Source: Agelas oroides (taxonomy: Eukaryota; Porifera; Demospongiae; Agelasida; Agelasidae). Taken from it: DNA of 64,000 nucleotides. This document shows, one piece after another, positions 19,950 through 59,623 of this stretch; position 1 is the stretch's first letter, and each line of letters opens with the position of its first letter. The stretch is from positions 7,231,085 through 7,295,084 of the forward strand of contig OX422192.1 of assembly GCA_949130485.1 (NCBI GenBank). Reading direction: 5' to 3'. Under the pieces are notes generated by a model, which had not been told where the DNA came from, made no database searches, and worked only from the letters and a program-made list of their open reading frames with translations. The position numbers and the translations under genes were made by a program.

Positions 19950-20583
19950 TAGCCTCGTACCCAGGCCGTTAATTAGGAAAAACGGCCTGGCAACTTACCC
20001 GGGTTCAAACTGTATACGGATGTGACGTAAAAAGATTACAGCTGCACCAATACAAGCCATGAATATTGGATAATGCATGTGATATTTAATCGTAGCCACG
20101 TGACTGTTCGTAATTGTGCAAGCGCGTTGTTGTTGCCAGTAGACTCGTTACAGGCTTATATTGGATGGTTACTGTCTTACTTGTCATCTGTAGACGAACT
20201 GCTTGCAGTAGACTCGCTCTCGCTCACCGATGTCGATGTGTCCGACTGACAGTAAGTACTAAACTAGTACCTGACACTGCTACTCTCGAACTGGTCCTTT
20301 TTTATAAAGAATCCGTTTTGTCCGCAGGCACTGTAGTTGTTGCACACAAGTCAACGGAAGGAGTTCGAACAAAAGCGTCATTCCAAGCGCTAGCGGTACC
20401 ACGGGACGGGTATATTAATACTGTGATGCATTTATGACGCAATTAAAATTCTGTACAACTGTCACGTGAAGCGTTCTGAAATCTGATTGGTACTGACAAC
20501 TCCAGTGCAGCGGAAGTCAACAGTTTGAACTCGGAGAAGTTGCCAGGCCGTTTTTCCTAATTAACGGCCGGGGTACGAGGCTA
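19950..20583. mobile_element. TIR element inserted in satellite, 9-bp TSD
   Basis: A 634 bp non-satellite insert interrupts one monomer. It starts TAGCCTCGTACCC and ends with the inverse, GGGTACGAGGCTA (one mismatch follows), and the inverted similarity runs about 45 bp. The exact 9 bp sequence GGGGAGGTA lies on both sides (19,941-19,949 and 20,584-20,592), and the satellite continues in register after it. Each terminal arm also holds its own hairpin, CCAGGCCGTT-N10-AACGGCCTGG. No ATG-started ORF of note lies inside, so it is non-autonomous. The 9 bp duplication suggests the Mutator-like group, but no transposase is present to prove it. Confidence 0.9.
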
Positions 20584-20592
20584 GGGGAGGTA

Positions 20593-23500
20593 TAGCTGGG
20601 AATTTGCGAGAATTTCCATTGCCGGTATTGTACGACGATGGTGGTGGCGGACCAATTTGCAAGCTCCTACCGCTTTGTGCGTTGATTGCACAAACGGAGG
20701 GTTAGCGTTTTTGGCCTCCTCATACCCTCAGCTTCCTGTTCATATGTAGTTTTGATTAGTGCAACGATTGTTCCGGGGGAGGGATTGCTGGGAATTTGCG
20801 AGAATTTCCATTGCCGGCATTGTACGACGATGGTGGTGGCGGACCAATTAGCGAGCACCTACCGCTTTGTGCGTTGATTGCACAAACGGAGGGTTTGCGT
20901 TTTTGGCCTCCTCATTTCCTCACAGCTTCCTGTTCATATGTAGTTTGCATTAGTGCAACGATTGTTTTGCGGGAAGGATTGCTGGGAATTTGCGAGAATT
21001 TCCATTGCCGGCATTGTACGGTGATGGTGGTGGCGGACCAATTTGCGAACTCCTACCGCTTTGTGCGTTGATTGCACAAACGGAGGGTTTGCGTTTTTGG
21101 TCTCTTCATTCCCTCAGCTTCCTGCTCATATGTGGTTTACATTAGTGCAACTATTGTTCCGTTGTAGTGTTTGCAGGGAATTTGCGAGAATTTCCATTTC
21201 CGGTATTATACGGCGATGGTGGGGGCGGACCAATTTGCGAGCTCCTACCGCTTTGTGCGTTGATTGCACAAACGAAGGGTTAGCGTTTTTGGCCTCTTCA
21301 TACCCTCGGCTTCCAGCTCATGTGTAGTTTCTTTCTGTGCAACTATTGTTCCGTTGTAGGTTTTGCAGGGAATTTGCGCGAATTTCCATTACCGGCAGTG
21401 TACGACGATGGTGGTGGCGGACCAATTTGCAAGCTCGTATCGCTTTGTGCGTTGATTGCACAAACGGAGGGTTTGCGTTTTTGGCCTCCTCATTCCCTAA
21501 GCTTCCTGTTTGTATGTAGTTTGCATTAGTGCAACTATTGTTCCGGGGGAGGAATTGCTGGGAATTTGCGAGAATTTCTATTGCCGGCATTGTACGACGA
21601 TGGTGGTGGCGGACCAATTTGCAAGCTCCTACCGCTTTGTGCGTTGATTGCACAAACGGAGGGTTTGCGTTTTTGGCCTCCTCATTCCCTCATCTTCCTG
21701 TTCATATGTAGTTTGCATTAGTGCAACGATTGTTCTGGGGGAAGGATTGCTTGGAATTTGCGAGAATTTCCATTGCCGGCATTGTACGACGATGGTGGTG
21801 GCGGATCAATTTGCAAGCTCCTACCGCTTTGTTCGTTGATTGCATAAACGGAGGGTTTCCGTTTTTGGTCTCCTCATTCCCTTAGCTTTCAGCTCATATG
21901 TAGTTTACATTAGTGCAACTATTGTCCCGTTGTATGGTTTGCAGGGAATTTGCGCGAATTTCCATTGCCGGAATTGTACGACGATGGTGGGGGCGGACCA
22001 ATTTGCAAGCCCGTACCGCTTTGTGCGTTGATTGCACAAACGGAGGGTTTGCGTGTTTGGCCTCCTCATTCCTTCAGCTTCCTGCTCATATGTAGTTTGC
22101 ATTAGTGGAACCATTGTTCCGGGGGAGTGATTGCTAGGAATTTGCGAGAATTTCCATTGCCGGTATTGTACGACGATGGTGGTGGCGGATCAATTTGCAA
22201 GCTCCTACCGCTTTGTGCGTTGATTGCACAAACGGAGGGTTTCCGTTTTTGGCCTCCTCATTCCCATAGCTTGCTGCTCATATGTTGTTTGCATTAGTGC
22301 AACTATTGTTCCGCTGTAGGATTAGCAGGGAATTTGCGCAAATTTCCATTGCCGGTATTGTACGGCGATGGTTGTGGCAGACCAATTTGCAAGCTCCTTC
22401 CGCTTTGTGCGTTGATTGTACAAACGGAGGGTTTGCGTTTTTGGCCTCCTCATTCCTTCAGCTTCCTGCTCAAATGTAGTTTGCATTAGTGTTCCGCTGT
22501 AGGGTTTGCAGGGAATTTGCCCGAATTTCCATTGCCGGCATTATACGGCGATGGAGGTGGCGGATCAATTTGCGAGCTCCTACCGCTTTGTGCGTTGATT
22601 GCACAAACGGAGGGTTTTCGTTTTTGGCCTCATCATTCCCTCAGCTTCCTGTTCATATGTAGTTTGCATTAGTGGAACGATTGTTCCCGGGGAGGGATTG
22701 CTGGGAATTTGCGAGAATTTCCATTGGCGGCATTGTACGAGGATGGTGGTGGCGGATCAATTTGCGAACTCCTACCGCTTTGTGCGTTGATTGCACAAAC
22801 GGAGAGTTTGCGTTTTTGGTCTCCTCATTCCCTCAGCTTACTGCTCATATGTAGTTTACATTAGTGCAAGTATTGTTCCGTTGAAGGGTTTGCAGGGAAT
22901 TTGCGCGAATTTCGTTTTCTTGCATTATACGGCGATGGTGGTGGCGGACCAATTTGCAAGCTCGTACCGCTTTGGGCGTTGATTGCACAAACGGAGGGTT
23001 TCCGTTTTTGGCCTCCTCATTCCCTCAGCTTCCTGTTCATATGTAGTTTGCACTAGTGCAACGATTGTTCCGGGTGAGAGATTGCTGGGAATTTGCGCGA
23101 ATTTCCATTGCCGGCATTGTACGGCGATGGTGGTGGCGGACCAATTTGCGAGCTCCTACCGCTTTGTGCGTTGATTGCACAAACCGAGGGTTTGCGTTTT
23201 TGGCCTCCTCATACCCTCAGCTTCCTGCTCAAGTGCAGTTTGCATTAGTGCAACTATTGTTCCGTTGTAGGTTTTGCAGGGAATTTGCGCGAATTCCCAT
23301 TACCGGCATTGTACGGGGATGGTGGTGGCGGACCAATTTGCAAGCTCGTACCGCTTTGGGCGTTGATTGCACAAACGGAAGGTTTGCGTTTTTGGCCTCC
23401 TCATTCCCTCAGCTTCCTGTTCATATGTAGTTTGCATTAGTGCAACGATTGTTCCGTGGGAGGGTTTACTGGGAATTTACACGAATTTCCATTGCCGGTA

Positions 23501-26500
23501 TTGTACGGCGATGGTGGTGGCGGACCAATTTGCAAGCTCGTATCGCTTTGGGCGTTGATTGCACAAACGGAACGTTTGCGTTTTCTGCCTCCTCATTCCC
23601 TCAGCTTCCTGTTCACATGTAGTTTGCATTAGTGCAACTATTGTTCTGGGGGAAGGATTGCTGGGAATTTGCGAGAATTTCCATTCCCGGCATTGTACGG
23701 TGATGGTGGTGTGCGTTGATTGCACAAACGGATGGTTTGCGTTTTTGGCCTCCTCATTCCCTCAGCTTCCTGTTCACATGTAGTTTGCATTAGTGCAACT
23801 ATTGTTCTGGGGGAAGGATTGCTGGGAATTTGCGAGAATTTCCATTGCCGGCATTGTGCGGTGATGGTGGTGGCGGACCAATTTGCGAACTCCTACCGCT
23901 TTGTTCGTTGATTGCACAAACGGAGGGTTTGCGTTTATGGTCTCCTCATTCCCTCAGCTTCCTGTTTATATGTAGTTTGCATTAGTGCAACGATTGTTCC
24001 GATGGAGGGTTTACTGGGAATTTTCGCAAATTTCCATTGCCGGAATTGTACGGCGATGGTGGTGGCGGACCAATTTGCAAGCTCCTACCGCTTTGTGCCT
24101 TGATTGCACAAACGGAGGGTTTGCGTTTTTGGCCTCCTCATTCCCTCAGCTTCCTGTTCACATGCAGTTTGCATTAGTGCAACGATTGTTCTGGGGGAAG
24201 GATTGCTGGGAATTTGCGAGAATTTCCATTGCCGGCATTGTACGGTGATGGTGGTAGCGGACCAATTTGCGAACTCCTACCGCTTTGTTCGTTGATTTCA
24301 CAAACGGAGGGTTTGCGTTTTTGGCCTCCTCATTCCCTCAGCTTCCTGTTTATATGTAGTTTGCATTAGTGCAACGATTGTTCCGAGGGAGGGTTTACTG
24401 GGAATTTGCGCAAATTTCCATTGCCGGAATTGTACGGCGATGGTGGTGGCGGACCAATTTGCTAGCTCCTACCTCTTTGTGCGTTGATTGCACAAACGGA
24501 GATTTTGCGTTTTTGGCCTCCTCATTCCTTCAGCTTCCTGTTCATATGTAGTTTGCATTAGTGCAACTATTGTTTCGGGGAGGGTTTACTGGGAATTTGC
24601 GCGAATTTCCATTGCCGGCATTGTACGGCGATGGTGGTGGCGGACCAATTTGCGAGCTCCTACCGCTTTGTGCGTTGATTGCACAAACCGAGGGTTTGCG
24701 TTTTTGGCCTCCTCATACCCTCAGCTTCCTGCTCAAGTGCAGTTTGCATTAGTGCAACTATTGTTCCGCTGTAGGGTTTGCAGGGAATTTGCGCGAGTTT
24801 CATATGCCGGCATTATACCGCGATGGAGGTGGCGGATCAATTTGCAAATTTCTACCGCTTTGTGCGTTGATTGCACAAACGGAGGGTTTGCGTTTTTGGC
24901 CTCATCATTCCCTCAGCTTCCTGTTAATATGTAGTTTGCATTAGTGCAACTATTGTTCCGCTGTAGGATTAGCAGGGAATTTGCGCAAATTTCCATTGCC
25001 GGTATTGTACGGCGATGGTTGTGGCAGACCAATTTGCAAGCTCCTACCGCTTTGTGCGTTGATTGCACAAACGGAGGGTTTGCGTTTTTGGCCTCCTCAT
25101 TCCTTCAGCTTCCTGCTCAAATGTAGTTTGCATTAGTGTTCCGCTGTAGGGTTTGCAGGGAATTTGCCCGAATTTCCATTGCCGGCATTATACGGCGATG
25201 GAGGTGGCGGATCAATTTGCAAGCTCCTACCGCTTTGTGCGTTGATTGCACAAACGGAGGGTTTTCGTTTTTGGCCTCATCATTCCCTCAGCTTCCTGTT
25301 CATATGTAGTTTGCATTAGTGGAACGATTGTTCCGGGGGAGGGATTGCTGGGAATTTGCGAGAATTTCCATTGGCGGCATTGTACGAGGATGGTGGTGGC
25401 GGATCAATTTGCGAACTCCTACCGCTTTGTGCGTTGATTGCACAAACGGAGGGTTTGCGTTTTTGGTCTCCTCATTCCCTCAGCTTACTGCTCATATGTA
25501 GTTTACATTAGTGCAAGTATTGTTCCGTTGAAGGGTTTGCAGGGAATTTGCGCGAATTTCATTTTCTTGCATTATACGGCGATGGTGGTGGCGGACCAAT
25601 TTGCAAGCTCGTACCGCTTTGGGCGTTGATTGCACAAACGGAGGGTTTCCGTTTTTGGCCTCCTCATTCCCTCAGCTTCCTGTTCATATGTAGTTTGCAC
25701 TAGTGCAACGATTGTTCCGGGGGAGAGATTGCTGGGAATTTGCGCGAATTTCCATTGCCGGCATTGTACGGCGATGGTGGTGGCGGACCAATTTGCGAGC
25801 TCCTACCGCTTTGTGCGTTGATTGCACAAACCGAGGGTTTGCGTTTTTGGCCTCCTCATACCCTCAGCTTCCTGCTCAAGTGCAGTTTGCATTAGTGCAA
25901 CTATTGTTCCGTTGTAGGTTTTGCAGGGAATTTGCGCGAATTCCCATTACCGGCATTGTACGGGGATGGTGGTGGCGGACCAATTTGCAAGCTCGTACCG
26001 CTTTGGGCGTTGATTGCACAAACGGAAGGTTTGCGTTTTTGACCTCCTCATTCCCTCAGCTTCCTGTTCATATGTAGTTTGCATTAGTGCAACGATTGTT
26101 CCGTGGGAGGGTTTACTGGGAATTTACACGAATTTCCATTGCCGGTATTGTACGGCGATGGTGGTGGCGGACCAATTTGCAAGCTCGTATCGCTTTGGGC
26201 GTTGATTGCACAAACGGAACGTTTGCGTTTTCTGCCTCCTCATTCCCTCAGCTTCCTGTTCACATGTAGTTTGCATTAGTGCAACTATTGTTCTGGGGGA
26301 AGGATTGCTGGGAATTTGCGAGAATTTCCATTCCCGGCATTGTACGGTGATGGTGGTGTGCGTTGATTGCACAAACGGATGGTTTGCGTTTTTGGCCTCC
26401 TCATTCCCTCAGCTTCCTGTTCACATGTAGTTTGCATTAGTGCAACTATTGTTCTGGGGGAAGGATTGCTGGGAATTTGCGAGAATTTCCATTGCCGGCA

Positions 26501-46300: not shown

Positions 46301-49300
46301 CAAGCACATGGAGGATGGTTTCAGCATGGAGGAAGGAAGTGACACCTGGAGTGTTCAAAGTTGGTCAAAAGGTAGGGAAAAGCCCATACTGACCTATGAT
46401 GTAATCACCTGGCTTTATAAATGTACAACCTGCAAGACTATTTCAGCTGATATTGACAAATATTATGGGACAGTCCCAGATAGAGGTCAAATAGTATTCT
46501 ATTGCGTGCATCACAGCATTGTATTGCTGAACCTCCATTACAGACAGGGCTCATACGTGCTACAAAGATGTACCATATATTCATGCATCTACAATGGGAT
46601 GTATTTCAATCCAATACTGCGCTTGAAACACATGACAGAATAATATTCACTTTCTATCTGGGACTGGATCACAGCTGACCTTCTGTGATGGAAGACCCTT
46701 CACTTCTTTCTAACTTGCCATGACTGAAATAGTTGAAGAGTACACTGCCCTGAGGGAATGCACACATTATCACAATTGAGACACCAGCATCAGCAGATCA
46801 TCTCAAAGAGTTGGTCAAATGATTGTAAAAAAAAAAAGAACCCAGACTGGATAAGAAACAGTAGCCGTAAAGTCTAGTTCCCAGAACACTTAGTCAAACT
46901 TTGTTCTCAGGCCCACATCCAGCTTACTGTCCCTTACAGCATGCTTCTTCACATGTATACCACACCCATGCATTGTTACTAGTAAGTGCATTTCACTTAT
47001 AAGCACATATCACTTTATATTGAGTGTTGGTTTATGTGCTGTGTAACTCCAAATAAAGCACACTGAACGCTGTTAGGCACATTCGCCTGTTAGGCATTCA
47101 CTTACTTCCTGTGGAAATGTAAGTGTATGCGCTTCACCATAAACAGTAGAGTAGTAGCAATGCGTGAGTATGGTATACGTTAAACTAAGTGACAAAAATC
47201 TGAACTTCTGTTGGCCCCCGGCAATGAGGCTATGAATACCCAGCAGATTATTATGGTAGCTCTCGTAAGAATGGTACAATCTACCTGCGGGTCAGCCAGG
47301 ACCACTTTGATCTGTGGGTTTTTGCTTTTCAAAAACATTCCAACACCTATGTAAAGGAGTAAAGCAAGACAGTTAAAAATTAGGACAAGATCCCCAACAC
47401 ATGTTACGATAACAACAGACCAGTCTAATGACTACAGAAAAACTGGTGATATGAAAGTCTGGAGATGAGGTTAAGACCAGCCCAAGTTCTAGCCTAGAAT
47501 GTGATTGGTGAGCCACTTGACCATCATGTTACACAGACAAGCCACTGGTACAAACATGCATAAAGCAACATGTGCAGTGTATACTGAGCTTTCCCGCCTC
47601 TCCAGTTTTGATTACTCGCAGTACATATGCCAACACAGAGTGTGCAATGTGTGTGTGACATCAGTAGACACATGGGGGGCAGTGTCTGACCATAATAGTT
47701 TACAGTTGTGTCAATTCTCTGTTTCTGGCTTCCTGAATGTTGAGTAGTATTGATGCTGCCTTTGAAACGCTCCATGCAGGCAGCCCTTGGGGTACCCCAC
47801 AAGGGATCTCTCAATCCACATGTGACCAGACCTCCCAGGCCTCCGTATTTGCATAATGCAAGCAAACAACCTCCATATTCGCATACTGCAAGCAATCAGC
47901 CTCCATATTCGCATACTGCAAGCAATCAGCCTCCATATTCGCATACTGCAAGCAATCAGCCTCCATATTTGCATTCTGCAAGCAATCAGCCTCCATCTTT
48001 GCATACTGCAAGCAATCAACCTCCATATTTGCATAATGCAAGCAATCAAAGACTAAAAGCCAGGGAACAATGCTAACACACCATTCACTCTCTAGTCTTC
48101 ACTTTATACGGTTACACTGTGCGCTAACCTGCCAATGTTCCTCCTGTGCCAGTTCCAAATGTCACTGCATCCACCTTACCATCTGAGGAAGAAGATGTCA
48201 TGTCATACACACAAGGTGTTAAGATGAAGCTGTTTGTTCAAGGCTACACAAACAAGATCAGCTTTGCACCTAGTCTCAAATCCAGACACAGCTATGGATT
48301 TGGCCCTAAGAATGAGGCTAGGTTATGAAGTAGACTTGTGGTGCTCAGACCCTAGATATCAGTGTTAAACACCCAGAAATGTAGCTAAACTTGGCCAAGC
48401 TGGTATCCACAGCAGTGTTCATAGCAATGGCAGTGATCGCAGAAGTTTGATAAGTAGCAAATTTTAGCACACATTGACATACACATGAACAGCGGTGGAC
48501 TAAAATTGTTTCCAGCAAAACAAACTAGCTATATATTGTTTTGCTTTAAACTCTTATTCTCGGACAGCAGGCAGTGCCCTCACAAGTTGTCCCTTTCAAG
48601 CCAACCTTCTGGCTCTACTGTGTCAGACAGATGGGCCTAGACGCTCCTTCAGTAGGTTAACCTGAGAGACACAGGACAGCTAGGCAGCACTAACCTGTCT
48701 GCCTCCATATCTCGGGGCCAGTAGTCTCAATGTGGGCCTTCCTGTTGGCTGTGTTGTCAAACTGGTTAGTCCACACGGCATTGTCCAGGGACTCTGCGTA
48801 CCGCTTTGCCTGCGGGGTGGAGAGAGATGCAGGTACTAATATATGACTATAGGGATGGTTTAATCACCTAGTGGAGTCTTCCCATTTCCTCTCCCTCCTT
48901 AGTCTTGTGCCCAGACTACTTTTTCACATGCAGAGGGTAAAAATAGTCTGGGAATGAAACTACCCCCTCCCTTACGTGCCTGGTGGTTGTAATTGTCCGG
49001 GTTGTCAAATGGCACAGCTGGTACTGGCCTTACATCAGCACCAAGCACCCTCAATGCATCCACCTTTTCCTGGAGGAAGATATGTATCGTTGTGGTAGTA
49101 TGTATACATATATAGCCTTGTTTGCAGCCTCAATTTATTGACATTCGCATACATGTTCATAGCACAGGTGGTTGAGAATTTATGATTTAGTAAAATAATC
49201 TTTTCCTCAACCTTGAACTCAATTATCAGTGTGCCCTTGGCTATACAGTGAAACATTCTCTATAGTGGACACCTCGGAGAAAAATCTTTTCCACAAAATG

Positions 49301-51579
49301 CACACACTTCGATATTCCCTACAACAGACACCAAAAGCTGTCCCAATTGTATGACAACAGTACTTAACGAACGTAAAGTATTACACCACTCAATGGAGAT
49401 TCAATCCGTCTGGATTGAATCTCCATTGAGTGTAGTACTTTACAGTTCCACAAAATGCACACACCTCAATATTCCCTACAACAGACACCAAAAGCTGTCC
49501 CAATTGTATGACAACAGTACTTAACGACCCCTGTCTGGCAAGACACTTATCTGCAAAATTTTTCTTCACTGCTGCTAGATATAATGAGTGGGCTGCATTT
49601 TAGCAATAACTTATCTTATCCTAGATTCCTAGAAAGGGTCTCTCATCCTCCCTCACCAGCGTACAGCAAGAGATAGATCTGCCTCATTTCCCTGAATACG
49701 CATTACCATGCCTACCAGAAATACACCGGAAGACCCTAAAATATGGATACCATCCTATAGCCAACATGCAGCGGAGATCCCTATGGTCCATGTATCCCCC
49801 GTCCCCCCTATGCCACTGGGGTGAGGAAAATGAAGCTATCTCGAATCGGTTTTCTGTTCTGGAGTTTGTCTTGCAGCATTTGAGGACTCCAAAGCTGTCT
49901 CTCCTGATGGAGCCATGCTTCACTTCAATTACCTGCATGTTCTGGCTCACCTGTGACTGTGTGTTGGGCATGAAGATGACACACTTGTACCCGAGAGAGT
50001 TGCAGAGGTGTGCCAGACCAATACCAGTGTTGCCAGCTGTACCCTCCACTATTGTACCCCCCGGCCTCACCAAACCTGCACAATCAAATGGATGTGTACA
50101 TATTCGGCACATACATGGTGTTTAAGTCTATCTTATGCCCCATTTTTATGGTCATACAACCCAATGACATACATAAGGCCAGCCACCTGACTGCAGAAGA
50201 TGGTGGTCCTTCTGGTCACCCTAGTGTAGCTGATGAAACCTGAACATGTCCAAGCTGTGCAGGGAGTAAATATCTAGGCCTGCTCTTTGATGGGGAGATG
50301 TGGTTCGTTGATTGTTCATGCCCCTGCTTGCAGAGGTCAAAACCTGCTCTTTGATGGGGAGGTGTGGTTCGTTGATTGTTCATGCTCCTGCTTGCAGAGG
50401 TCAAAACCTGCTCTTTGATGGGGAGGTGTGGTTCGCTGATTGTTCATGCTCCTGCTTGCAGAGGTCAAAACCTGCTCTTTGATGGGGAGGTGTGGTTCGT
50501 TGATTGTTCATGCTCCTGCTTGCAGAGGTCAAACCTTCTAAAACCTCCTGTAAGGTTCTTGTACCAGCATGGAGTGGCCACAAAGCTCCCTCCCATATTG
50601 TAAGTCACTGCATAGGACGTACTCTGCTCAACAACAGTTATAACAGGTCTCAATAGGCGTGGTATGTATATACAACAAGTCTCATGGAAATCTGTATCAG
50701 TGTGGCCTCATTCCCAGGTTCTCGTGCACATGAGAGCCTGGGAATGACACCAGTATCAGTACTGCATGTCACACATGTTACAAGTAAACGTTATTGTGCA
50801 ATGTGTATACACATGATCTTACCACAGTACAAAGCTATAGTTGAAAACATTACGAGTTTGGCATCTATACTCAAGCTATGTACTGGAAAAATCAACAAAG
50901 TCATGATACTTCCTTGACTGCCGAGTGCCTTAGGGTGAGGCTACTAATCTTGCAGTGTCTATCCCCAGTTGGTGCGATGTGGTTTACATTCTCAATATAG
51001 CTTTGTGATAAATCATGTGACAGTGTGTGTGTGCATTGGCTCCACCCACCCTTCTCCTCAGCCTCCTTGATCAAATAGAGGGCTGCTCGGTCCTTGACCG
51101 ACCCTCCTGGGTTGAGGTTCTCTGCCTTCACCGCAATTGTGCACCCTGTTGCCTCACTCAACTTGCTCAACTTTATCAGAGGAGTGCTTTGTTTTAGGGG
51201 GTATTGAGGGGAGAGGAAGGAGGAAGATGGGAGAAGGGATGAGGGATGGAAGGAGGAAAGGGGAATGTGAGAAAGATGTGGATGGGAAAAGATCAAGAAA
51301 GAGGAGACAGGATAGGAGGAGATAATTATGGAGATGAAGGAGGAAAATGGTAAGAGATTAGGAAAAGAAAGGAGGAAGGGAGGAGGGAAGTGGAAGGTGA
51401 GAAGGATAGAGAGGAAATGGGAGAAGAGATACGAAAGAAGAAGGGTAGGAAAGAGGAAGAGGGAAGCAAATACACTGAACAATGATATGATAATCATGAG
51501 TTACTCACTTCCCGACTGCACTTCTGAAGTCTTGCACAAAAGTCTGTGAGGGAGTGAATAGCACAAAAATCCCAAACAT
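40395..51579 (-). CDS. Cysteine synthase-like PLP enzyme, 13 exons
   Basis: Exons, minus strand: 51509-51579, 51050-51186, 49951-50075, 48980-49069, 48695-48809, 48129-48182, 47285-47346, 46680-46749, 45887-45975, 43111-43185, 41310-41369, 40490-40535, 40395-40441. They total 1,041 bp and keep one frame (346 residues), ATG at 51,577-51,579, TAA at 40,395. The product is a fold-type II PLP enzyme of the cysteine synthase/CBS-like family: Schiff-base lysine in NPGGSVKDR (K55), substrate loop TAGNTG (82-87), phosphate loop GTGTGGT (189-195), [14 protein letters not shown] (236-249), GASSGLN (284-290) and CDSGQ near the end. It should make cysteine or a related thiol product from an activated serine and a sulfur donor, PLP-bound; cytosolic versus mitochondrial site is unclear. 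Length suits a CysK-type protein without regulatory CBS domains. All introns look GT-AG except intron 4, which needs a GC donor. The first and last short exons are the least certain; exon 1 fits in frame (SAVGN joining TPLIKL). Confidence 0.93.
41515..42583. mobile_element. Pogo/Tigger-like non-autonomous element in intron 10
   Basis: The element begins CAGTGGAACCTCTCTATAA and ends GGGGTTCCACTG, an inverted pair of the kind carried by pogo/Tigger-type Tc1-mariner elements. Both ends are flanked by TA (41,513-41,514 and 42,584-42,585), the usual target duplication for that group. Subterminal GGACACC/GGTGTCC is also inverted. No transposase can be read. A second element (41,860-42,480) sits inside it, so without the insert this copy would be about 445 bp. 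It lies in intron 10 of the synthase gene. Confidence 0.82.
41860..42480. mobile_element. Nested TTAA-flanked element
   Basis: This 621 bp insert starts GGTGGCGGGATA and ends TATCCCGCCACC, with TTAA directly on each side (41,856-41,859 and 42,481-42,484). TTAA duplication is the hallmark of piggyBac-type transposition. The ends are not a textbook piggyBac terminus, so the family is inferred from target site alone. The interior has no recognisable transposase; a 61-codon open frame at 42,104-42,289 matches nothing I know. The nesting dates it as younger than the pogo-like host element. Confidence 0.8.
43324..44037. mobile_element. Second pogo-like element, in intron 9
   Basis: The left end reads CAGTAGGAAGTCACTTATCC and the right end is its inverse apart from two bases at the tip. 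TA flanks both sides (43,322-43,323; 44,038-44,039). The 714 bp body includes an imperfect tandem pair of a 94 bp unit (43,519-43,706). The ends differ from the 41.5 kb element, so it belongs to another pogo/Tigger-like subfamily. No transposase is readable. Confidence 0.75.
43519..43706. repeat. 94-bp tandem duplication
   Basis: Two adjacent copies of a 94 bp unit starting CACC[GA]CTCTGGCTGACAG and ending CTGCTTTCTTGT, differing at about six positions. It lies inside the pogo-like element of intron 9. Confidence 0.85.
44328..44342. repeat. Poly-G run
   Basis: An uninterrupted run of about a dozen G residues in intron 9 of the synthase gene, between the pogo-like element and the kinase pseudogene. 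The exact length is the kind of feature that varies between assemblies. Confidence 0.8.
44793..45620 (+). pseudogene. TSSK-like serine/threonine kinase, broken copy
   Basis: One intron-free plus-strand frame gives most of a kinase domain of the testis-specific-kinase type: glycine loop [26 protein letters not shown], catalytic loop [51 protein letters not shown] and a closing HPWM. It is not functional. A TGA interrupts the front (GYILG-stop-TLGSG, near 44,829), and two TAG stops lie after ARPQEG (near 45,249 and 45,255). The usual VAVK lysine region reads INISI, so the ATP-anchoring lysine is missing, and a few residues before GGDLLD are lost. The lack of introns suits either an old retrocopy or decay of a naturally intronless gene; I see no poly-A tail. 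It sits antisense in intron 9 of the synthase gene. Confidence 0.88.
47850..48055. repeat. 30-bp minisatellite, about 7 copies
   Basis: A 30 bp unit of the form GCATACTGCAAGCAATCAGC followed by CTCCATATTC is repeated about seven times in intron 6 of the synthase gene; three central copies are identical and the outer ones diverge. As 30 is divisible by 3, several frames stay open on both strands (e.g. repeated [10 protein letters not shown]), but this is a by-product of the repeat and not a gene. Confidence 0.93.
48900..48962. mobile_element. Small foldback element beside a splice donor
   Basis: Left end TAGTCTTGTGCCCAGACTAC and right end, inverted, TAGTTTCATTCCCAGACTAT form a 63 bp foldback related to the TAGCCTCG-type family. 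Flanks CTCCCTCCT (48,891-48,899) and CCCCCTCCC (48,963-48,971) agree at 7 of 9 positions, fitting a decayed 9 bp target duplication. The right flank lies about 8 bp from the 5' splice site of intron 4 of the synthase gene. Confidence 0.65.
49246..49560. mobile_element. Pogo-like left end, fragment
   Basis: After a TA, the sequence CAGTGAAACATTCTCTATAG followed by TGGACACC resembles the left end of the 41.5 kb pogo-like element. No matching right end is visible within the next few hundred bases, so only a fragment remains; its right limit is approximate. It contains the duplicated block and hairpin described separately. Confidence 0.5.
49289..49527. repeat. 82-bp direct repeats flanking a hairpin
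   Basis: Two nearly identical 82 bp copies (49,289-49,370 and 49,446-49,527; period 157 bp) enclose a 75 bp palindrome whose arms contain ACTCAATGGAGATTCAATCC and its inverse around a 4-base loop. Either a foldback element inserted with an unusually long target duplication, or a 157 bp unit was duplicated and lost its second hairpin. It lies in intron 3 of the synthase gene. Confidence 0.85.
50279..50534. repeat. 64-bp tandem array, four copies
   Basis: Four head-to-tail copies of a 64 bp unit (landmark CCTGCTCTTTGATGGGGAG, at 50,279, 50,343, 50,407 and 50,471), nearly identical, in intron 2 of the synthase gene. No coding role is apparent. Confidence 0.95.
50703..50752. mobile_element. 50-bp foldback element, near-9-bp TSD
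   Basis: Ends TGGCCTCATTCCCAGG and, inverted, TGGTGTCATTCCCAGG. Flanking GTATCAGTG (50,694-50,702) and GTATCAGTA (50,753-50,761) match at 8 of 9 positions. It is a shortened relative of the TAGCCTCG-type foldback family, in intron 2 of the synthase gene. Confidence 0.75.
51190..51475. repeat. Purine-rich (GGA/GAAA) low-complexity tract
   Basis: About 285 bp of almost uninterrupted purines on the plus strand (pyrimidines on the gene strand), filling most of intron 1 of the synthase gene. Read from the gene strand it resembles an oversized polypyrimidine tract ahead of the exon 2 acceptor. Long open frames here are compositional artefacts. Confidence 0.9.
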
Positions 51580-52953: not shown

Positions 52954-53220
52954 CAATCCTAGATAATGTGTCATTTTTATTGACATGCAAGTTGTCTCAT
53001 TTAATCTCCCTAGCTCACTCTTCCTTACTTTCTCTCTCTCTCCCTACCTCTCTCCCTCCGCCCGCCCGTCCATCCATCCACCCACCCACCCATCCACCCT
53101 TCCTTCTTTTCTTCCTTCCTTCCCTCCTCTTAGCTAACCACTGAACACCTAGTGACTTGTGCAGTTAAAAGCATGAAATGCACATCGTCAGTTAAGTGCT
53201 GCAAACAATGACTGGTTAAA
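52954..53220. repeat. Pyrimidine-rich simple repeats after C8orf33-like gene
   Basis: From about 53,005 to 53,135 the sequence is CT-rich with short runs of CTCTCT, CCGCCCGCCC, CATC, CCAC and TTCC. It is low-complexity DNA, possibly partly in the 3' UTR of the gene upstream. Confidence 0.8.
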
Positions 53221-53815
53221 ACTAGGAGTACGCATGCGTATGATGCCTCGCGCCGCTCCAAGCGCCATGCGCGGATGGGGCGCGCGGCGCAGGTGTCAGG
53301 GGTTGCTCGTTTAGTATAGCAATAAGATAGTGGGAGCCCAAAGAATAGTACAAAACAACGGTAACGTGAAGAGTGAGCCTAAATACCTGGCTTGTGAAGA
53401 ATCTCCAGTACGTGCTTTCTACTGTTAAACTTTCTCTTGTTTTGTTTTATTTCTTTGTCAGAGTCGCTAGCCGTCGGCTGCGTTCAGTACTCGCTTCTGC
53501 ACTTGACTCAGCCAAATACGTACGTTGCGAAGGCCCAGCCGCGCTGTCCTCCCGTCCTCTGTCGCCAAAAACGTCGTCCCGACGTCGTCGTGTAATGCAC
53601 GTGGTATCTGATATCGTGCCTGGGCGTGACCTCAAATTGACATTCCTAAGCGTGACCGACACGTACGTACGTACGTACGTACGCACGTACGCACGTACAT
53701 TGCGAGAATAGATCCCTCATTCAGAGCCTCGCGCTAATGCGCTCGGCAACTAGTCATTGTTCACAGTCCTTTTACACTCAGTTTTGATCAGCAACACAAA
53801 ATGGAGGGAGAAACC
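53221..53815. other. CpG-rich stretch with (ACGT)n, no gene seen
   Basis: A CpG-dense segment (about 53,225-53,640, including GCGCGGCGC runs) is followed by an ACGT microsatellite at 53,661-53,698. A CpG island with an unrecognised first exon is possible: a pyrimidine stretch ending TGTCAG near 53,460 could be an acceptor. Open frames here (up to 112 codons) match no family I know. Confidence 0.5.
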
Positions 53816-53923
53816 TAGCCTCAAACCCAAGCTTTCCGTTCCAGATTTTGTCTCGCAGCTTTGGAGATTTTTCTCCAAAGCTGTGAGACAAAATCCGGAA
53901 CGGAAAGCCTGGGTTCGAGGCTA
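53816..53923. mobile_element. 108-bp foldback element, exact 9-bp TSD
   Basis: The element opens TAGCCTCAAACCCAAGCTTT and closes with the near-perfect inverse ending GGGTTCGAGGCTA; the arms are about 50 bp with a very short loop (GATTTTTC region). GGAGAAACC is present on both sides (53,807-53,815 and 53,924-53,932), an exact 9 bp duplication. Ends and duplication length match the elements at 19,950 and 59,508. Confidence 0.92.
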
Positions 53924-53932
53924 GGAGAAACC

Positions 53933-54459
53933 AAACAAGATCTGTGGTTAGCTGTTGTAAAATATTATAAAGAGCAGCTGATGCAATTGCTTCCAGTTCT
54001 TGTGGGTGAAATGAGAGATGAAAGTGCATGTGCGTAGAGCGAATTTCTTTGACTAGGTTGCAATAGCAATGTGGTTAGAGGAATAATTAAGACATATAAT
54101 AGTGCCATACAAACAAATAAAGTTTGATGTAAACCTAAAAGCAAGATACAAAATGCATGAATGCACGTGAATACAAAATTAACACACTAAGCAATAATGA
54201 GCCCTTCTTTTCTTGATGGATGCACGTGCTTGTTAGCTACAGCTTCCATATTCTTCAGCAGGCCGAGGATCATGTCCAGTCAAAGCGCAATTTATAGCTG
54301 TAACGTATATAGCGCAACTACTAGATCATTTATAGCAGCATTGGCCGAGATGGAAGTATAACCACTAGAACTATCATCACTCACATCAGCTTTGGGTGTA
54401 AAGTAAGCGTGACTGTGATCAATCATGGCATGCGAGGTAGGTTGATTGTCCCTGAATTT
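53933..54459. other. Intergenic stretch, no gene seen
   Basis: No exon, RNA gene or clear repeat is recognisable between the foldback element and the receptor pseudogene. Base composition is AT-rich and unremarkable. Confidence 0.5.
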
Positions 54460-54740
54460 CTTGCAACAAAAAGCAAATAGCTGTTTTCATTTTTCAACTG
54501 CTTTTTTCACTTTCTGTTGTTGGAATCTGTTCAGGGAATGGAGCTGGAAGAAGAAGCCTATAGGTATTAGGAGTTTGTACACCGAAGTGACTATATTAAT
54601 CCTGTGGTTTGTTGATGAAACCAAAATATAGATTTGACAATGCCTCAATGACTGTATATAAAAGTTCCGAAAAGCAGTACAAAGGGCAGGAAATAACAGT
54701 CTCAGCAGCTTTGATCCCATGCCTTCTCCGCAAAGGGAGA
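54460..54740 (-). pseudogene. Fragment of 7TM receptor related to the 57-kb gene
   Basis: The minus strand encodes, in two frames, a stretch that parallels the receptor at 56,942-58,072 around transmembrane segments 6 and 7. It has RRRHGIKAAETVI against RRQINLRAAETVI, then LSNLYFGFINKPQ against SSLYFGFTKKPQ, then YKLLIPIGFFFQLHSLNRF against YKLLIPVGFVFQLHSLKKF, and VKKAVEK against VKEAVRK. A frame change between the LYFGF and YKLLIP blocks and the lack of the first five transmembrane segments show it is dead. It is a duplicate in the same orientation as the intact gene, about 2.2 kb away. Confidence 0.85.
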
Positions 54741-54903
54741 TCAATTCGTGCCAGGCAGGAACCTTTAATTATTTCTAAAACAACCAATCTTTCTTTTGCA
54801 GTGATAGCTTTAGACAACTGGCATGTGTTGACAGTCAGCCTGGCATATCATTCATTGGCCAAATAACATGCATGTAAGAGGCCAGGGAGGGGGGGCAGAG
54901 AAC

Positions 54904-56682
54904 CACTGAGTGGTTACCCTGGTTGCAGACATGCCGAGGAGACAGTGGTTTATTTTATTAGAGGCTAATTACATAAGCAACCAAAACCTTACAACAGAAA
55001 ACCCTCAGAACATCTGTGAGGAAGTCACTATTTACAACTACACTTCAAACGTAGGATGCTGTTATTGCATGCTTTTTGATGCAAGCAGGTATATGATCCC
55101 TTCACAGATGTTCAGGTTATTAGCTAGCTGCAAGATCCTGGTTGTAAGATGGTCCTGGAAGCTTCTTCTCTGGCTGTCTTATGTAATCATATGACTATAT
55201 CACAGTCCATAGTTAAGCTCCATTAACAACAGTGCAATCAATGCCAAATAGTGTTGCAACATGTTTTCTTGTACATGTAAACAGTGCAAAAAAGCGTAAT
55301 AGCGCCTAGCTCTCTGATTGGCTGAAAAACAGACTGTCAACAGTGCAAAAGTGTAACAGCTCACTGAACAAGTGTGCAAAGGTGTAATAGCTCACTGGTT
55401 GGTCAGTGATTTGTAAGTATCAACAATTTCAATTTGCTGTACACTATACAGTGCACTGTAAACTTGTATACCATAACTAGCCTATCTCACGCATGCTCAT
55501 ACGTATTGTAGTGTACTGTCAACTTGGCAAAGTTTATGATAAGCAATTAATAGCGTGTTTTCTCGTACAGTTGGGGATTAATAGAATTCGTGGTTGCACT
55601 TGAAACCATGCTATAAATTATACATACAGTCCAAACAACTGTTTCTTCAGCTTGTTCACCACAAGGGCAACCACCCTGTGGTTAAAACAACCAATTTCTT
55701 ATTGCATTGATGGCCTACATGGTTACTGCAAGTCATAACTATGTATAGTGTATGTCAGAAAACATTAATTTTAGCCACAGAGTACCGGTATAGTTATGGC
55801 TTTGGTTGTAGAAAACATGCAGTGGTTGAAAAGTTTGTTTTGTTATGTAGTATATAGTAGTCAGACACTAATTGCATAAAACAACCAGCTGGCCCAGATC
55901 AACTTACAACCATAATTGCAGACTACTGAACACTTGTTACCTGCTGTATGTTAAAAGCCAATGGTATGAAATATTTGTCATACTTGATGGCAACTTTGAA
56001 ATGCAGTTGTAACATGTACTTTGTTAGTGTTTGTAATGACATGCCTCCAAATTCTATTATCAATCTCTGGTATCAAAATGAACTTCAGGAATTAAAGAGT
56101 CAATTTCTGTTTTGGATTCTTGAGCGATAAGTTAGTCTATATTACCTCTGTACAGAAAGGGTGTTGTGATTAGCTACCCATCTTGTTAGTTAAACTTTGC
56201 AAGTCAGGTGGAGGTGTAATTGTCTTGTAACTCATCAACTTGTCTGTGTGGTTATCATAATGGCAACACACGCATGTCTGACAGGTGCTCTGCACATTCA
56301 GTTTCTATTTGCTAACACATTCCAGATTGGGGGTTGTAATTGGAACAAAAGAGACAAAATTGATTGGTGGTTGTTACCATGGTTGCTGAAAAACTGGTGG
56401 TGAGGCTAGCCCACCAGGCCCAGATCACCTGTAACCACTGTGGGAATCTGTGAAAGTGAAAGTTTGTGAAAGTTTTGTGAAAGTTTTGTGAAAGTTTTGT
56501 GAAAGTTTTGTGTAATCTGTGAACGTTTTCATCATTGATCCTTTTGAGTGTATAGTTGTAGTGACTTCACACATGGGGGTTGTCAGTGTTAGATAATTTT
56601 CACAGCTTTCTAGGCCGATTTGCAGTCAAGATCAACTTTGCAACTCTTGTTACTTGTCTGCAACCAGGGTAACCACTCCGTG
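54904..56682. mobile_element. 1.78-kb element with 28-bp inverted ends
   Basis: The left end CACTGAGTGGTTACCCTGGT continues TGCAGACA, and the inverse of this (one mismatch) closes the element at 56,682. No target duplication is evident. The interior has no recognisable transposase but repeats motifs like GGTTGTTACC and CAACCA, and holds a GTGAAAGTTTT minisatellite (56,449-56,516). Near 55,275-55,400 two imperfect copies of a GTGCAAA...GTGTAA(C/T)AGCTCACTG unit occur. Family unknown; it lies between the receptor gene and its dead relative. Confidence 0.7.
56449..56516. repeat. GTGAAAGTTTT short tandem repeat
   Basis: Five or so copies of an 11-13 bp unit (GTGAAAGTTTT with a short variable tail) inside the 1.78 kb TIR element. 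Confidence 0.85.
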
Positions 56683-56941
56683 ATTAACACGACCACTCTG
56701 CTTTTGCTAAAGACTAGATTGTCGGCTTCAATCACTTACATTTTTTCTTGTATGTATACACTACATCAATTATTGTTCATAATGTAAACAAAGTGGCCTA
56801 TGCATGCACGTACAAAGACAGAACTACTTACAGATGACGTAATGAAGGCAGGGAAAGTACAAAATGAATGCGATGTTTAGTTATACACAATCAATCCTCA
56901 TGCAGACTTTCAACCTATTTTCTTAAACATTTGTATAATAA

Positions 56942-58072
56942 TTATGCCGTTTGGGTACAACTTCCATAATTATTAATGGAAGGATTATCCCCATCAGTAA
57001 ATTTGGAAATACTATCAGGATGTGAAGGTTGAAAGGTAGTAACACTGGGTTGAATGATAGCAAATGAGCTTCTGATAGTTGCCTGCTGTGAAAGCGTACC
57101 TTCAATTCCTGGGCCAGGACCAATTTGCAGTTTGCAACAGCAACTACACAGCCTTTTCCATTTTCTGACTGCTTCCTTCACTTCCTCTCGTTTGAATTTC
57201 TTCAGGGAATGGAGCTGGAACACGAATCCCACAGGTATTAGGAGTTTGTACACTGGAGTGATTATGGCATGTATCATTAACAGGGTATAACCCTGTGGTT
57301 TCTTGGTGAAACCAAAGTATAGACTTGAGGATGCCTCAATGCCTGCAAACGTTCCAAAGAGCAGTAAAAAGACCAGGAGAATAACAGTCTCAGCAGCTCT
57401 CAAGTTGATTTGACGCCTTTTCTGCTCGTAGGTGAAGGCTCGTTTACAGAAAACCCCAATTGTTAACAAAGCAAAGAGCACAATGAGAAGGCCAAGCACA
57501 CCAAATGGAGCGTAAAATAGGCTAATTTGCTCCCAGAATCCTGCATCATTTTCAGAACAGTCCATATTGTGTGTTTTGATCCAGCACCAAGGCTCAACAT
57601 CACTCGAATAGTTTCCATCGAGGAATGGAATCCAGATGAATGGCAATGGAAGGACAATCAGAATGACAACAAAACCAGCTTCAAGTAGCTTCTTGGTCCT
57701 GCCAGTTAGAGTAGGTGGGCACTTGCAAGAGCATACTGAACATAAAATGACAAAAGTGACTGCAAATGTGAAAATGAGCACGGAGATTGCAGCCCACTGA
57801 TCAAAAAATCCCATGGCAGCACAAAACTGACTCAATCCATCGTATGGCCTGATGTGCATGATCTCCATAGACAAGGCCCAAACTGTGATTGCGGTGATAT
57901 ACACGAGCAAACGCTCTAGAAATATCTCAAATGCTCGCACAAATACAACAGCCAACAGAATTAGTGCAGTCACTGATAGGCATGCAGCTGCGGTGATGCT
58001 TCTGGCTGCGGCTGCCCTCAGAATTTCGTCTCTGCTAATATTGGTGCAGTTCATCAAAGAATTGCCGTCCAT
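56942..58072 (-). CDS. Seven-transmembrane receptor, cAMP-receptor/GPR157-like
   Basis: An intact single-exon frame of 376 codons (ATG at 58,070-58,072). The N-terminus is short with two N-glycosylation sequons (N8-C-T, N11-I-S). Seven hydrophobic spans fall at about residues 24-47, 52-70, 82-112, 130-150, 183-208, 226-250 and 266-288. A cysteine at the start of TM3 and the PWCWI segment before TM5, with a nearby cysteine, suit the conserved extracellular disulfide. TM7 runs into YKLLIPVGFVFQLHSLKKF and a basic, cysteine-rich tail (CSCCCK, candidate palmitoylation) with serine/threonine sites beyond. WCWI and the short N-terminus point to the cAMP-receptor-like/GPR157 type rather than the rhodopsin class; no DRY or NPxxY is visible. 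It should act at the plasma membrane through G proteins; ligand unknown. A dead relative lies downstream at 54.5 kb. Confidence 0.85.
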   Translation of the reverse strand: MDGNSLMNCTNISRDEILRAAAARSITAAACLSVTALILLAVVFVRAFEIFLERLLVYITAITVWALSMEIMHIRPYDGLSQFCAAMGFFDQWAAISVLIFTFAVTFVILCSVCSCKCPPTLTGRTKKLLEAGFVVILIVLPLPFIWIPFLDGNYSSDVEPWCWIKTHNMDCSENDAGFWEQISLFYAPFGVLGLLIVLFALLTIGVFCKRAFTYEQKRRQINLRAAETVILLVFLLLFGTFAGIEASSSLYFGFTKKPQGYTLLMIHAIITPVYKLLIPVGFVFQLHSLKKFKREEVKEAVRKWKRLCSCCCKLQIGPGPGIEGTLSQQATIRSSFAIIQPSVTTFQPSHPDSISKFTDGDNPSINNYGSCTQTA

Positions 58073-58350
58073 TCTCGTTTGTCTGGTGTCAGCTTTTGTT
58101 CCAACTCAGGAGTCAGGACACGTACGTGTAAGATTCCTGTTGCATTTATGGATGTAGGCGGAGTCCAAGTTTTAAGTCTTCACGCTAGAATTCTGTGACT
58201 TGGAATCGCGGTCTGCGAGCACCGTCCTGCGCAACGATGATTCGTGGACGAAATGTGGACAAGCAGAATTTGCGCCCCAAAAGCCGACTTATCACCCCTA
58301 ATACATTTTTTTGGCACAGCACCATTTCAGGGTGAAGTCCAATTGTTTAA
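58073..58350. other. Upstream region of receptor gene
   Basis: Contains the 5' flank of the minus-strand receptor gene. No TATA box or other certain motif is seen; the promoter should lie here by position only. Confidence 0.4.
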
Positions 58351-58434
58351 AATGTGGCTTGGTGTTGAAGCCAAGTGCATGGCCATGCACTTGGCTTCAA
58401 GGCCATGCACTTGGCTTCAACACCAAGCCACATT
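58351..58434. mobile_element. 84-bp TTAA-flanked foldback
   Basis: Arms AATGTGGCTTGGTGTTGAAG and onward, with the exact inverse on the right, flanked on both sides by TTAA (58,347-58,350 and 58,435-58,438). The inner 20 bp of the right arm (ATGCACTTGGCTTCAAGGCC) is present twice. The TTAA flanks hint at piggyBac-type mobilisation, but chance is possible with such AT-rich arms. Confidence 0.6.
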
Positions 58435-58659
58435 TTAACCAAACAGTGAAGGACCTCCAAATTAGGCCACGCAAGGTTATTTTCCTGTTCAGTCTGGTGT
58501 ACAAGCGGCAACATGCATCATGGACAGGGTGAGGTCCAGGCACAATGACAACAAAATGCAGACACTTGTGCATCTAAACAGCCAAAATATAGAAGTTTGG
58601 ATGGTAAAGCCGGTCACGGGGTAAAAGACGTAGGCTTAATTTAATCCATGTGTCACTGA

Positions 58660-59300
58660 ATTACGTTACCATTCCCATGAGTCACTCAAGCATGATTAAA
58701 AGAAGAAAGACGGAAGATAAGGGAGCAAAAGAAGAACACCAGAAAAAACGGGCTGCTAAATGTTCTACCCCCAAGTACGTATGCACCACGTAAGTGGAAC
58801 TTATGTCAGAAGGGTGCAATCTCATTTCAGGGATTGGACATGAGAGTCGGGTTTTGACATGAGACTGGTCTTACCGTCCTCCGAGTCTTTTTCGTCTCCT
58901 TCTGCAATCGTACTTGCTCGATAGGCAACAGAGATTTACCTTTGAGGCAAAGGATGTAATTCTTTCCCTATATAACTGTATCATGCCTTTTTATATATAT
59001 GGGGAAGTTTTACGTTAGATGTGAAGTAATAACAGGGTACCCCTCTGGTGACTCACGAGAGAATGTAAATGAGATTCATAGCCAATCATTTGATAATTTA
59101 CAGGAATATCCTTTTGAGGCTTAAGACGTAATTCTTTCCCTATATAAGACCACATGTGCATACTTTTGGGCATTTTACGTACAATGAAAGCACGTAATTC
59201 TATCCCATGAGTAACCCAAGGTGCAAATGACGTAATTCTTTCCCATGAGTGACTCATGGGAATGGTAACATAATTCTTTCCCATGAGTGACACATGGGAT
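58660..59300. repeat. Cluster of TCCCATGAGTNAC and ACGTAATTCTTTCCC motifs
   Basis: TCCCATGAGT followed by [CGA]A/AC occurs at about 58,673, 59,203, 59,241 and 59,279. The 59,242-59,260 copy is a 19 bp near-palindrome around TGAGT-G-ACTCA. ACGTAATTC or a close form recurs with them (59,130, 59,192, 59,230, 59,269) and as ATGTAATTCTTTCCCTATAT at 58,954, hinting at degenerate repeats of 40 and about 175 bp. TGAGTCA-type cores resemble AP-1/bZIP sites, but a decayed tandem repeat explains the cluster equally well. Confidence 0.55.
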
Positions 59301-59507
59301 TTTTCCTCAAATTCAGTACGTCTTTTTCTAAGTGACCGGTAAAGCCACTGAGGCAGGACTTCAGTGCAGGATGTGTGGTTGCAGGCTGAATACTGTAGCC
59401 GTTGTTTCAGAACGGACCAGAACGGACCGGAACGGAACAGTTCCATCACATTAGCTATTTCATGCAATGTACTGTATGACTGCCCATGAGCCAAAGTGGG
59501 TCTGGCA

Positions 59508-59614
59508 TAGCCTCGTTCCCAGGCCTTCCCCGGCTCCAGTTTTTGATCGCTTGCAGTATGCAAAACTGCAAGCGATCAAAAACTGGAGCCGGGGAAGGCC
59601 TGGGAACGAGGCTA
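59508..59614. mobile_element. 107-bp foldback element, exact 9-bp TSD
   Basis: A nearly perfect palindrome: TAGCCTCGTTCCCAGGCCTT at the left, its inverse ending GGGAACGAGGCTA at the right, with arms of about 50 bp around a short GTATG-type centre. GGTCTGGCA lies on both sides (59,499-59,507 and 59,615-59,623), an exact 9 bp duplication. The lack of arm divergence suggests a young insertion or a strongly constrained hairpin. Confidence 0.95.
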
Positions 59615-59623
59615 GGTCTGGCA

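Follow-up and report, generated by a model that had tools for sequence, protein, structure and literature searches.

Mutator/MULE transposons duplicate 8-11 bp of their target, mostly 9 bp; hAT and P transposons duplicate a fixed 8 bp, and Helitrons make no target duplication. The FB/NOF foldbacks of Drosophila combine 9-bp duplications with arms that are long and internally repetitive. The elements reported here, hairpins with TAGCCTC tips in the genome of the sponge Agelas oroides, are like FB/NOF in being foldbacks with 9-bp duplications, and would differ from it in the character of the arms.

Tm1 of root-knot nematodes is a Mutator/Foldback family, placed in Mutator by its authors, with target duplications of 8-10 bp, mostly 9, at 45 of 53 complete elements (PMC3169594). 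The sponge elements resemble Tm1 in their foldback ends of variable length, their non-coding MITE-like members and their 8-10 bp duplications; they differ in having one conserved tip motif, whereas in Tm1 the repeats consist for the most part of 13-15 bp units in tandem and the outer motifs are asymmetric, and in that a coding copy of Tm1 is known (PMC3169594), whereas none was found here, where members are as short as 32 bp. Tetris, a foldback of Drosophila virilis, was assigned to Mutator through duplication length and analogy, and it shares with the sponge elements the foldback form, duplications of 8-10 bp and a coding copy not found, and, listed among the likenesses, a satellite that arose from Tetris; there are three structurally complete copies of Tetris, compared with tens of thousands of tips and many interiors here (PMC4079207).

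The window, which is the whole stretch of 64,000 nucleotides that was analysed, contains the elements listed in Table 1.

Table 1. Elements of the TAGCCTC-tip family in the window and their target duplications.
Feature	Position	Strand	Remarks
634-bp foldback element	19950-20583	.	inverted arms of 64 nt with 94% complementarity; 39 further near-identical genome copies scored
Left copy of 9-bp target duplication GGGGAGGTA (634-bp element)	19941-19949	.	in 192-bp satellite
Right copy of 9-bp target duplication GGGGAGGTA (634-bp element)	20584-20592	.	
63-bp decayed hairpin member	48900-48962	.	tip variant TAGTCT...AGACTA; flanks weakly alike (7/9), C/T-rich
50-bp decayed hairpin member	50703-50752	.	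flanks GTATCAGTG / GTATCAGTA, 8/9 bases alike; arms 83% complementary
108-bp palindromic element	53816-53923	.	54-nt arms (2 flanking bases included), 93% complementary; 4-nt spacer
Left copy of 9-bp target duplication GGAGAAACC (108-bp element)	53807-53815	.	
Right copy of 9-bp target duplication GGAGAAACC (108-bp element)	53924-53932	.	
107-bp palindromic element	59508-59614	.	perfect inverted arms of 50 nt; spacer of 7 nt
Left copy of 9-bp target duplication GGTCTGGCA (107-bp element)	59499-59507	.	
Right copy of 9-bp target duplication GGTCTGGCA (107-bp element)	59615-59623	.	
Decayed hairpin, ~72 bp	63082-63153	.	good tip TAGTCTCGTTCCCAGACC at the right end only; left boundary set by eye

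As the first-pass annotation had proposed, the elements at 19950, 53816 and 59508 share TAGCCTC(G/A) tips and have exact 9-bp duplications, the coordinates and duplications being correct, and their foldback structure is borne out by inverted arms capable of pairing and by variable size. Long pairing arms and variable size are features of FB-type elements; tandem repeat units, as in FB-type arms of short tandem repeats, were found in none of the arms of these three. Two shorter relatives, both decayed, had been credited with near-perfect duplications; the flanks agree at 8/9 bases at 50703 and at only 7/9 at 48900. At 63082-63153 a target duplication was looked for and none was found. The tip at 63153 is assigned to this decayed hairpin and not to a MULE-like remnant at 61415-62163, because no left end or duplication was found that would make tip and remnant one element. 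When the flanks of the 634-bp element are joined minus one duplication, the resulting 60 bases agree at 58 with each of four other stretches of the 192-bp satellite (starts 16080, 19537, 20755 and 26628); thus the duplication and ends of this element are real and the claimed insertion into satellite is supported, by a test that concerns the window copy and uses paralogous satellite sites.

The proposal of one family united by its tips is supported. The 259-Mb genome has 35,853 matches to the strict 16-nt tip (reversed-pattern control, 0), and 347 hairpins of 32-62 bp are bounded on either side by a perfect 16-nt tip (control, 0). Element sizes range from 32 to 1,293 bp, and many unrelated interiors are capped by one and the same tip, the interior varying and shrinking until two tips meet as a 32-bp palindrome. 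In the scanned loci, the 6-nt tip word TAGYCT forms 32 pairs that are spaced by 20-2,000 bp and flanked by an exact duplication of 8-10 bp, versus 0 for 60 permuted words; 10 of the 32 are the 634-bp element (9 fetched deliberately, 1 the window copy), 5 lie in L001-L008, which are loci fetched around tip matches, and the scan was run without L009-L018 (short MULE loci, partly within L029-L048), without L019 (the window copy again) and with a low-complexity filter that removes a 34-bp element of L040 (59-92). That element has ACAAACAAC on both sides, read by eye. Recent activity, also claimed at first, is supported for the 634-bp element by 99-100% identity in 40 of 40 scored copies. Outside the window, an element at 152-670 of L008 is built of tip repeats. 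A 17-nt tip scan of viral contigs gave one contig, which has no partner tip in 125 bases inside and was taken as chance.

The TAGCCTC-tip elements are a very large family of short, foldback-MITE-like hairpin transposons in which no coding copy was found. Foldback MITEs are a known kind of element, and the TAGCCTC-tip hairpins, which may be undescribed, are of that kind; the 16-mer TAGCCTCGTTCCCAGG was not found printed in the literature searched, and no description of such a family was found among the titles and abstract openings covered.

Exact duplications of 8-10 bp flank 56 insertions (L023 2190-2632 and L047 1555-2256, pairs in which inner tips are used again, having been dropped), with lengths of 9 bp in 43, 8 bp in 11 and 10 bp in 2, so that 9 bp is the modal length, as predicted. 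These lengths are those of Mutator; 45 of the 56 differ from the 8 bp of hAT and P, and the presence of any duplication departs from Helitrons. The combination of inverted ends with a duplication of set length in many copies is that of a TIR DNA transposon or MITE. An exact duplication is present in 10 of 10 copies of the 634-bp element examined (window copy included). For the two palindrome families the figures are 17 of 20 fetched copies (107 bp) and 9 of 12 (108 bp); both samples were the top-ranking BLAST matches to the respective window copy (20 and 12 of 40 scored each) and are thus weighted towards low stem divergence. In the 107-bp family 9 of the 17 exact cases are 8 bp long, versus 2 of 39 elsewhere (Fisher p = 1.3e-4), so that several enzymes, or different cutting geometries, may be at work. 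The 'other' group among the 56 was found through its duplication and hence has no denominator.

The tip consensus common to the family is TAGYCTYGTNCC(C)AGRC. An inner inverted copy of the CCAGRC motif (GYCTGG, bases 30-72) is present at 24 of 30 ends of longer members (reversed control word, 4 of 30), in a sample of 15 elements of which two have one mismatch in the duplication; 11 of the 30 ends are without an exact stem of their own of at least 6 nt under the rule applied. In the two palindrome families the apex is far more variable than the stem: the 107-bp family has 13 distinct apices in 21 copies, and 8 among the 11 copies in which both 49-nt stems equal the consensus. Nineteen of the 21 apices are joints of the terminal repeats of a parent, a 935-bp element in L040, with 0-2 bp of overlap, and the remaining two have inserts of 2 and 6 nt. 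The variants include changes beyond A-run length, and some are common to several loci.

The best joint explanation, with a probability of about 0.72, is that these are non-autonomous foldback MITEs served in trans by a transposase, most likely of the Mutator (MULE/IS256) superfamily, with terminal repeats joined through microhomology and apices that are recut. Such a transposase would recognise little beyond the tip and, in longer members, the inverted inner CCAGRC copy, for which reason unrelated interiors could travel with the same ends. The shortest members would come about when microhomology joins the terminal repeat at one end of a longer element to that at the other, and in palindromic members the hairpin apex would be cut and then rejoined by host repair, which would make it hypervariable while the stems stay nearly identical. 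Against this explanation stand the transposase gene with these tips not found, MULE ends unlike TAGCCTCG where ends could be suggested, the Merlin transposases of the genome, the 8-bp duplications of the 107-bp family and, for the inner fold, the 11 ends lacking a stem of their own. The enzyme that moves the family is probably of Mutator type.

The genome has 119 MULE matches, of which 20 were read as ten-kb regions; neither in these regions nor in the loci fetched was a transposase gene with these tips found, and the MULE ends, where they could be suggested, differ from TAGCCTCG. With frames of the MULE regions as tblastn queries, no MULE coding sequence was found inside TAGCCTCG elements of other loci. 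Three frames in longer members (L022, 147 aa; L038, 150 aa; L040, 106 aa), picked from the open frames of 12 stretches with the longest (L041, 211 aa) left out, gave no Pfam match above the cut-off (best E 0.068). At L003, a MULE-like open frame begins about 390 bp inside a tip and has no Pfam match above the cut-off; it was rejected as a partner, as the tip, judged by eye, bounds a decayed hairpin of some 46 bp on the left, and the MULE-like gene is probably just a neighbour of this hairpin. A transposase of some other or undescribed superfamily with 8-10 bp duplications would agree with the coding partner not found and with tips unlike all MULE ends suggested in the 20 regions, but it is unlikely: the duplication profile is that reported for the Mutator-type foldbacks Tm1 and Tetris, and the reading of MULE loci covered just 20 of the 119 matches, at 10 kb each.

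Slightly less likely again is a MITE of the same kind moved by a Merlin (IS1016-type) transposase. The genome has 23 matches to Merlin domains, of which two lie in open frames (279-280 aa), and the 8- and 9-bp mixture of the 107-bp family resembles the Merlin duplications of 8 or 9 bp given in PMC8101967; however, two of the 56 duplications are of 10 bp, and the tips begin with TAG, whereas Merlin ends, by that description, have a conserved terminal 5'-GG (PMC8101967).

It is improbable, although conceivable, that a short palindrome moves in the form of one folded strand, a covalently closed hairpin with its tips side by side and its apex opened and rejoined during transposition. If so, the apex joints would look like joints made by V(D)J recombination, the terminal repeat would carry, in its inner inverted motif, a site for hairpin recognition, and unrelated sequences might be mobilised once capped with the tip. 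The two parts of the tip are linked (TAGCCT...CAGG, 26,363 by subtraction; TAGTCT...CAGA, 6,830; mixed, 1,364 and 1,296; odds ratio 102), in counts that include tandem tip arrays many times over; this linkage was not accepted as proof of a folded tip, as the same table would be expected from two old subfamilies.

Returning to the Mutator-type transposase acting in trans, one MULE deserves attention as its possible source. L047 is the sole region of the 20 with a MULE between TAGCCTCG ends plus a 9-bp duplication: its outer unit of 5,927 bp has 94-bp perfect TAGCCTCG repeats and the duplication TTGTGATGG, and the MULE inside has an open frame of 639 aa that weakly matches a SWIM finger. That this MULE serves as autonomous partner, with the 5.9-kb unit as the full-length element, is nevertheless very improbable, and was rejected when blastn against other loci showed the MULE to be nested in a TAGCCTCG element. 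The MULE (3256-8072) is an element of its own, with GCGAATTTTT ends and an exact 9-bp duplication ACGGCGCGG; the TAGCCTCG element of L028 is the same one but lacks a MULE at that site, which makes it the empty site, and L045 has a MULE 94.8% identical to it over 4.7 kb without TAGCCTCG ends. The exact 9-bp duplication made by a MULE of this same genome is an observation that supports Mutator, and an L047-type enzyme may cross-mobilise TAGCCTCG ends. The first-pass annotation had suggested that a MULE may drive the family, which fits in duplication length; the only MULE between TAGCCTCG ends in the 20 regions read, of 119 matches, is a nested insertion.

Chance palindromes or assembly artefacts are extremely improbable: perfect hairpins are hard to sequence and homopolymers such as the apex A runs may have miscalled lengths, but the permuted tip words gave no pairs, the 634-bp element has satellite empty sites, and the apex variants include some that differ in more than A-run length and some that recur at other loci.

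The family suggests a minimal eukaryotic transposon, with a 16-nt tip at each end, 32 bp in total at its smallest, and many interiors, and it would let one ask what an end needs for recognition. With very many near-identical palindromes in one genome, the joints at their apices may preserve a natural record of how eukaryotic cells mend broken hairpins, a process otherwise investigated with engineered palindromes.

The three named window elements, which carry TAGCCTC(G/A) tips, lie where the first-pass annotation had placed them, each with an exact 9-bp flanking duplication. Two shorter relatives, both decayed members, had been credited with near-perfect duplications; 8 of 9 flanking bases agree at 50,703 and 7 of 9 at 48,900. 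The 634-bp element interrupts a 192-bp satellite array; its flanks, joined after one duplication copy was taken out, match four other places in the array at 58/60 bases, so that its insertion into satellite DNA is borne out by unoccupied counterparts.

Features in the window, at loci taken from the same genome (L numbers) and in the genome assembly (G000:C1)
Location	Strand	Feature	Details
1-37,625		192-bp satellite array	copies match each other ~87-88%
19950-20583		634-bp element	exact 9-bp duplication
48,900		decayed member	7/9 flanking bases
50279-50533		64-bp tandem repeat	four copies, 97% matches
50,703		decayed member	8/9 flanking bases
53816-53923		108-bp element	exact 9-bp duplication
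58343-58442		near-perfect palindrome	45-nt arms, 10-nt spacer; TAGCCTC tip absent, no clear duplication at flanks
58658-59276		31-nt inverted repeat pair	557 nt between, GAATTACGTTACCATTCCCATGAG ends; no duplication at flanks
59508-59614		107-bp element	exact 9-bp duplication
61415-62163	-	decayed MULE-like coding sequence	aligns in two parts with an open frame of 656 aa (L048) at 37-38% identity; no Pfam match for the one part submitted
~63,082-63,153		decayed member	
L002:1354-1403		short hairpin	8-bp duplication
L008:152-670		tandem tips	
G000:C1:1042982-1043306		tandem tips	
G000:C1 ~1.25-1.44 Mb		recurring tips	spaced ~15-21 kb apart, as would be seen with tandem copies of a long segment
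G000:C1:3270065-3270611		tandem tips	
G000:C1:8808791-8808982		tandem tips	

Across 324 kb of loci (less L019), TAGYCT at both ends combined with exact 8-10 bp flanking repeats was found in 32 pairs, 20-2,000 bp apart, and 60 permuted tip words gave no pair over the identical loci; the 32 are a non-random sample, since 10 are the 634-bp element and 5 lie within loci fetched around tip matches (L001-L008). With a looser 16-nt tip, 488 pairs were obtained, many of them unrelated because any two tips facing each other up to 8 kb apart were paired; the longest flanking match was 9 in 28 pairs, 10 in 3, 8 in 2 and 4 in 1, with nothing of 4-12 in 454.

Nine bp is indeed the typical duplication, accounting for 43 of all 56 exact cases (11 are of 8 bp and 2 of 10 bp). 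In the 634-bp family nine of the 10 copies have 9 bp and one has 10 bp; the 108-bp family (12 fetched copies) has 9 bp in 9, the other three showing 1, 2 and 5 mismatches; and the remaining members, including the two short window elements, have 9 bp in 17, 8 bp in 2 and 10 bp in 1. In the 107-bp family (20 fetched copies) 8 bp is found in 9 and 9 bp in 8, and the three copies lacking an exact duplication have 1, 2 and 5 mismatches in 9. Duplications of 8 bp are thus significantly over-represented in this family (9/17 versus 2/39 elsewhere, p = 1.3e-4), and its long relative, a 935-bp element in L040, likewise has one of 8 bp. In the 9-bp target sites, read on both strands, G is preferred at the first position (48%), which by symmetry makes C the preferred final base.

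The tip reads TAGYCTYGTN followed by CCAGRC, and the interior varies between families under one tip. Among 30 ends of 15 longer members (142-1,293 bp), GYCTGG, an inverted copy of CCAGRC, begins at base 30-72 in 24 ends, directly followed by TA in 14 of these, and is present in at least one end of 14 of the 15 members; the reversed control word GGTCYG occurs in 4 of the 30. The terminal repeat is therefore able to fold on itself. Exact stems of at least 9 nt within an end were found in 9 of 30 (30%), stems of this length between ends of different subfamilies in 3.5% of 794 cross-comparisons, and no exact stem of even 6 nt in 11 of the 30. That stems extend beyond the shared motif with differing letters in several subfamilies (CCGTT/AACGG, CCTTC/GAAGG, TCTCCCC/GGGGAGA) suggests that the fold matters, in a small sample whose subfamilies are not independent draws.

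Sizes range from members of 1,293 bp (in L022) and 935 bp down to hairpins of 48-75 bp with their own duplications. Across the genome, perfect 16-nt tips cap both ends of 347 hairpins of 32-62 bp, as against none for the control, and the smallest among the 50 listed, 32 bp, is two tips back to back. A duplication was read at one of the 347 (in L002), and the tips suggest that the rest also transposed. The 75-bp hairpin in L023 comprises the first 65 bases of the outer repeat of L047 (98.5%) and the complement of the tip, and could have arisen by simple microhomology deletion via the inner GGGCCTGGG copy or by fold-back copying. The tandem tip arrays, with periods of ~33-35, 59 and 22 bp, seem to be minisatellites seeded by the hairpin family.

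The 49-nt stems of the 107-bp family differ from the consensus at 0.7% of sites, and 13 different apices were counted among 21 copies, with 8 apices among the 11 copies in which both stems equal the consensus; the 108-bp family has 8 apices among 13 copies at 2.1% stem divergence. For the 107-bp family, comparison with the 935-bp element shows the apices to be joints of its terminal repeat: one arm runs to base 55-63 and the other to 49-55, the two overlap by 0-2 bp in 19/21, and the remaining two apices carry insertions of 2 and 6 nt. Spacers are shorter than 9 nt in 15/21 and 10/13 copies of the 107-bp and 108-bp families, respectively; attack by the yeast Mre11 complex is restricted to hairpins with loops <9 nt, according to PMC8053094. 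The apex has probably been opened and end-joined again and again, with recurrent formation from longer parents and remodelling in the course of transposition as possible alternatives. Certain apices are common to several loci (one to six), so the apex is not altered at each move.

Mutator is the best guess for the enzyme source, since the duplications have a fitting length and the foldback families Tm1 (PMC3169594) and Tetris offer a parallel; Tetris was likewise assigned to Mutator by duplication length and analogy, no coding copy having been found (PMC4079207). There are 119 matches to PF10551 (MULE) in the genome, and 10-kb regions around 20 of them were read. L047, considered as an autonomous element, proved to be a nest, its MULE lying inside an outer TAGCCTCG element with ends (GCGAATTTTT) and a duplication (ACGGCGCGG) of its own; thus a MULE of this genome produces 9-bp duplications. 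At L028 the outer element is present and the MULE absent at that site, and L045 has the MULE without TAGCCTCG ends. The ends suggested for other MULE regions are also unlike TAGCCTCG, part of them being inverted repeats without a matching duplication, and in several of the 20 regions none were found. The proposal of a MULE-driven family fits in the modal length of 9 bp, but no MULE with TAGCCTCG ends of its own was found in the 20 regions. Merlin, which has 23 matches in the genome, is a weaker candidate as mover, its ends being described with terminal GG in PMC8101967. Three MULE loci (L031, L036, L040) lie between inverted arms of 15-bp tandem units (TCCCAGAATGTCTAA and similar), resembling the Tm1/FB type.

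The strict tip TAGYCTYGTNCCCAGR occurs 17,622 + 18,231 times genome-wide (reversed control, 0), equivalent to about 18,000 elements if each has two intact tips; elements that keep only one intact tip, or whose tips have diverged, may push the actual number up, and tips that sit in tandem arrays may bring it down. All 40 scored copies of the 634-bp element (the window's included) are full length at 99-100% identity; its 374 first-look candidates are not to be taken as a copy number. Forty copies each were also scored for the 107-bp and 108-bp elements (1,069 and 863 first-look candidates, respectively). The 16-mer tip occurs in none of the papers in the library searched, and the family may already be catalogued. 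In kind these elements are foldback MITEs, a variant worth describing because members can be so small, interiors differ freely beneath a shared tip, the tip motif recurs inside the terminal repeat and the apex varies.
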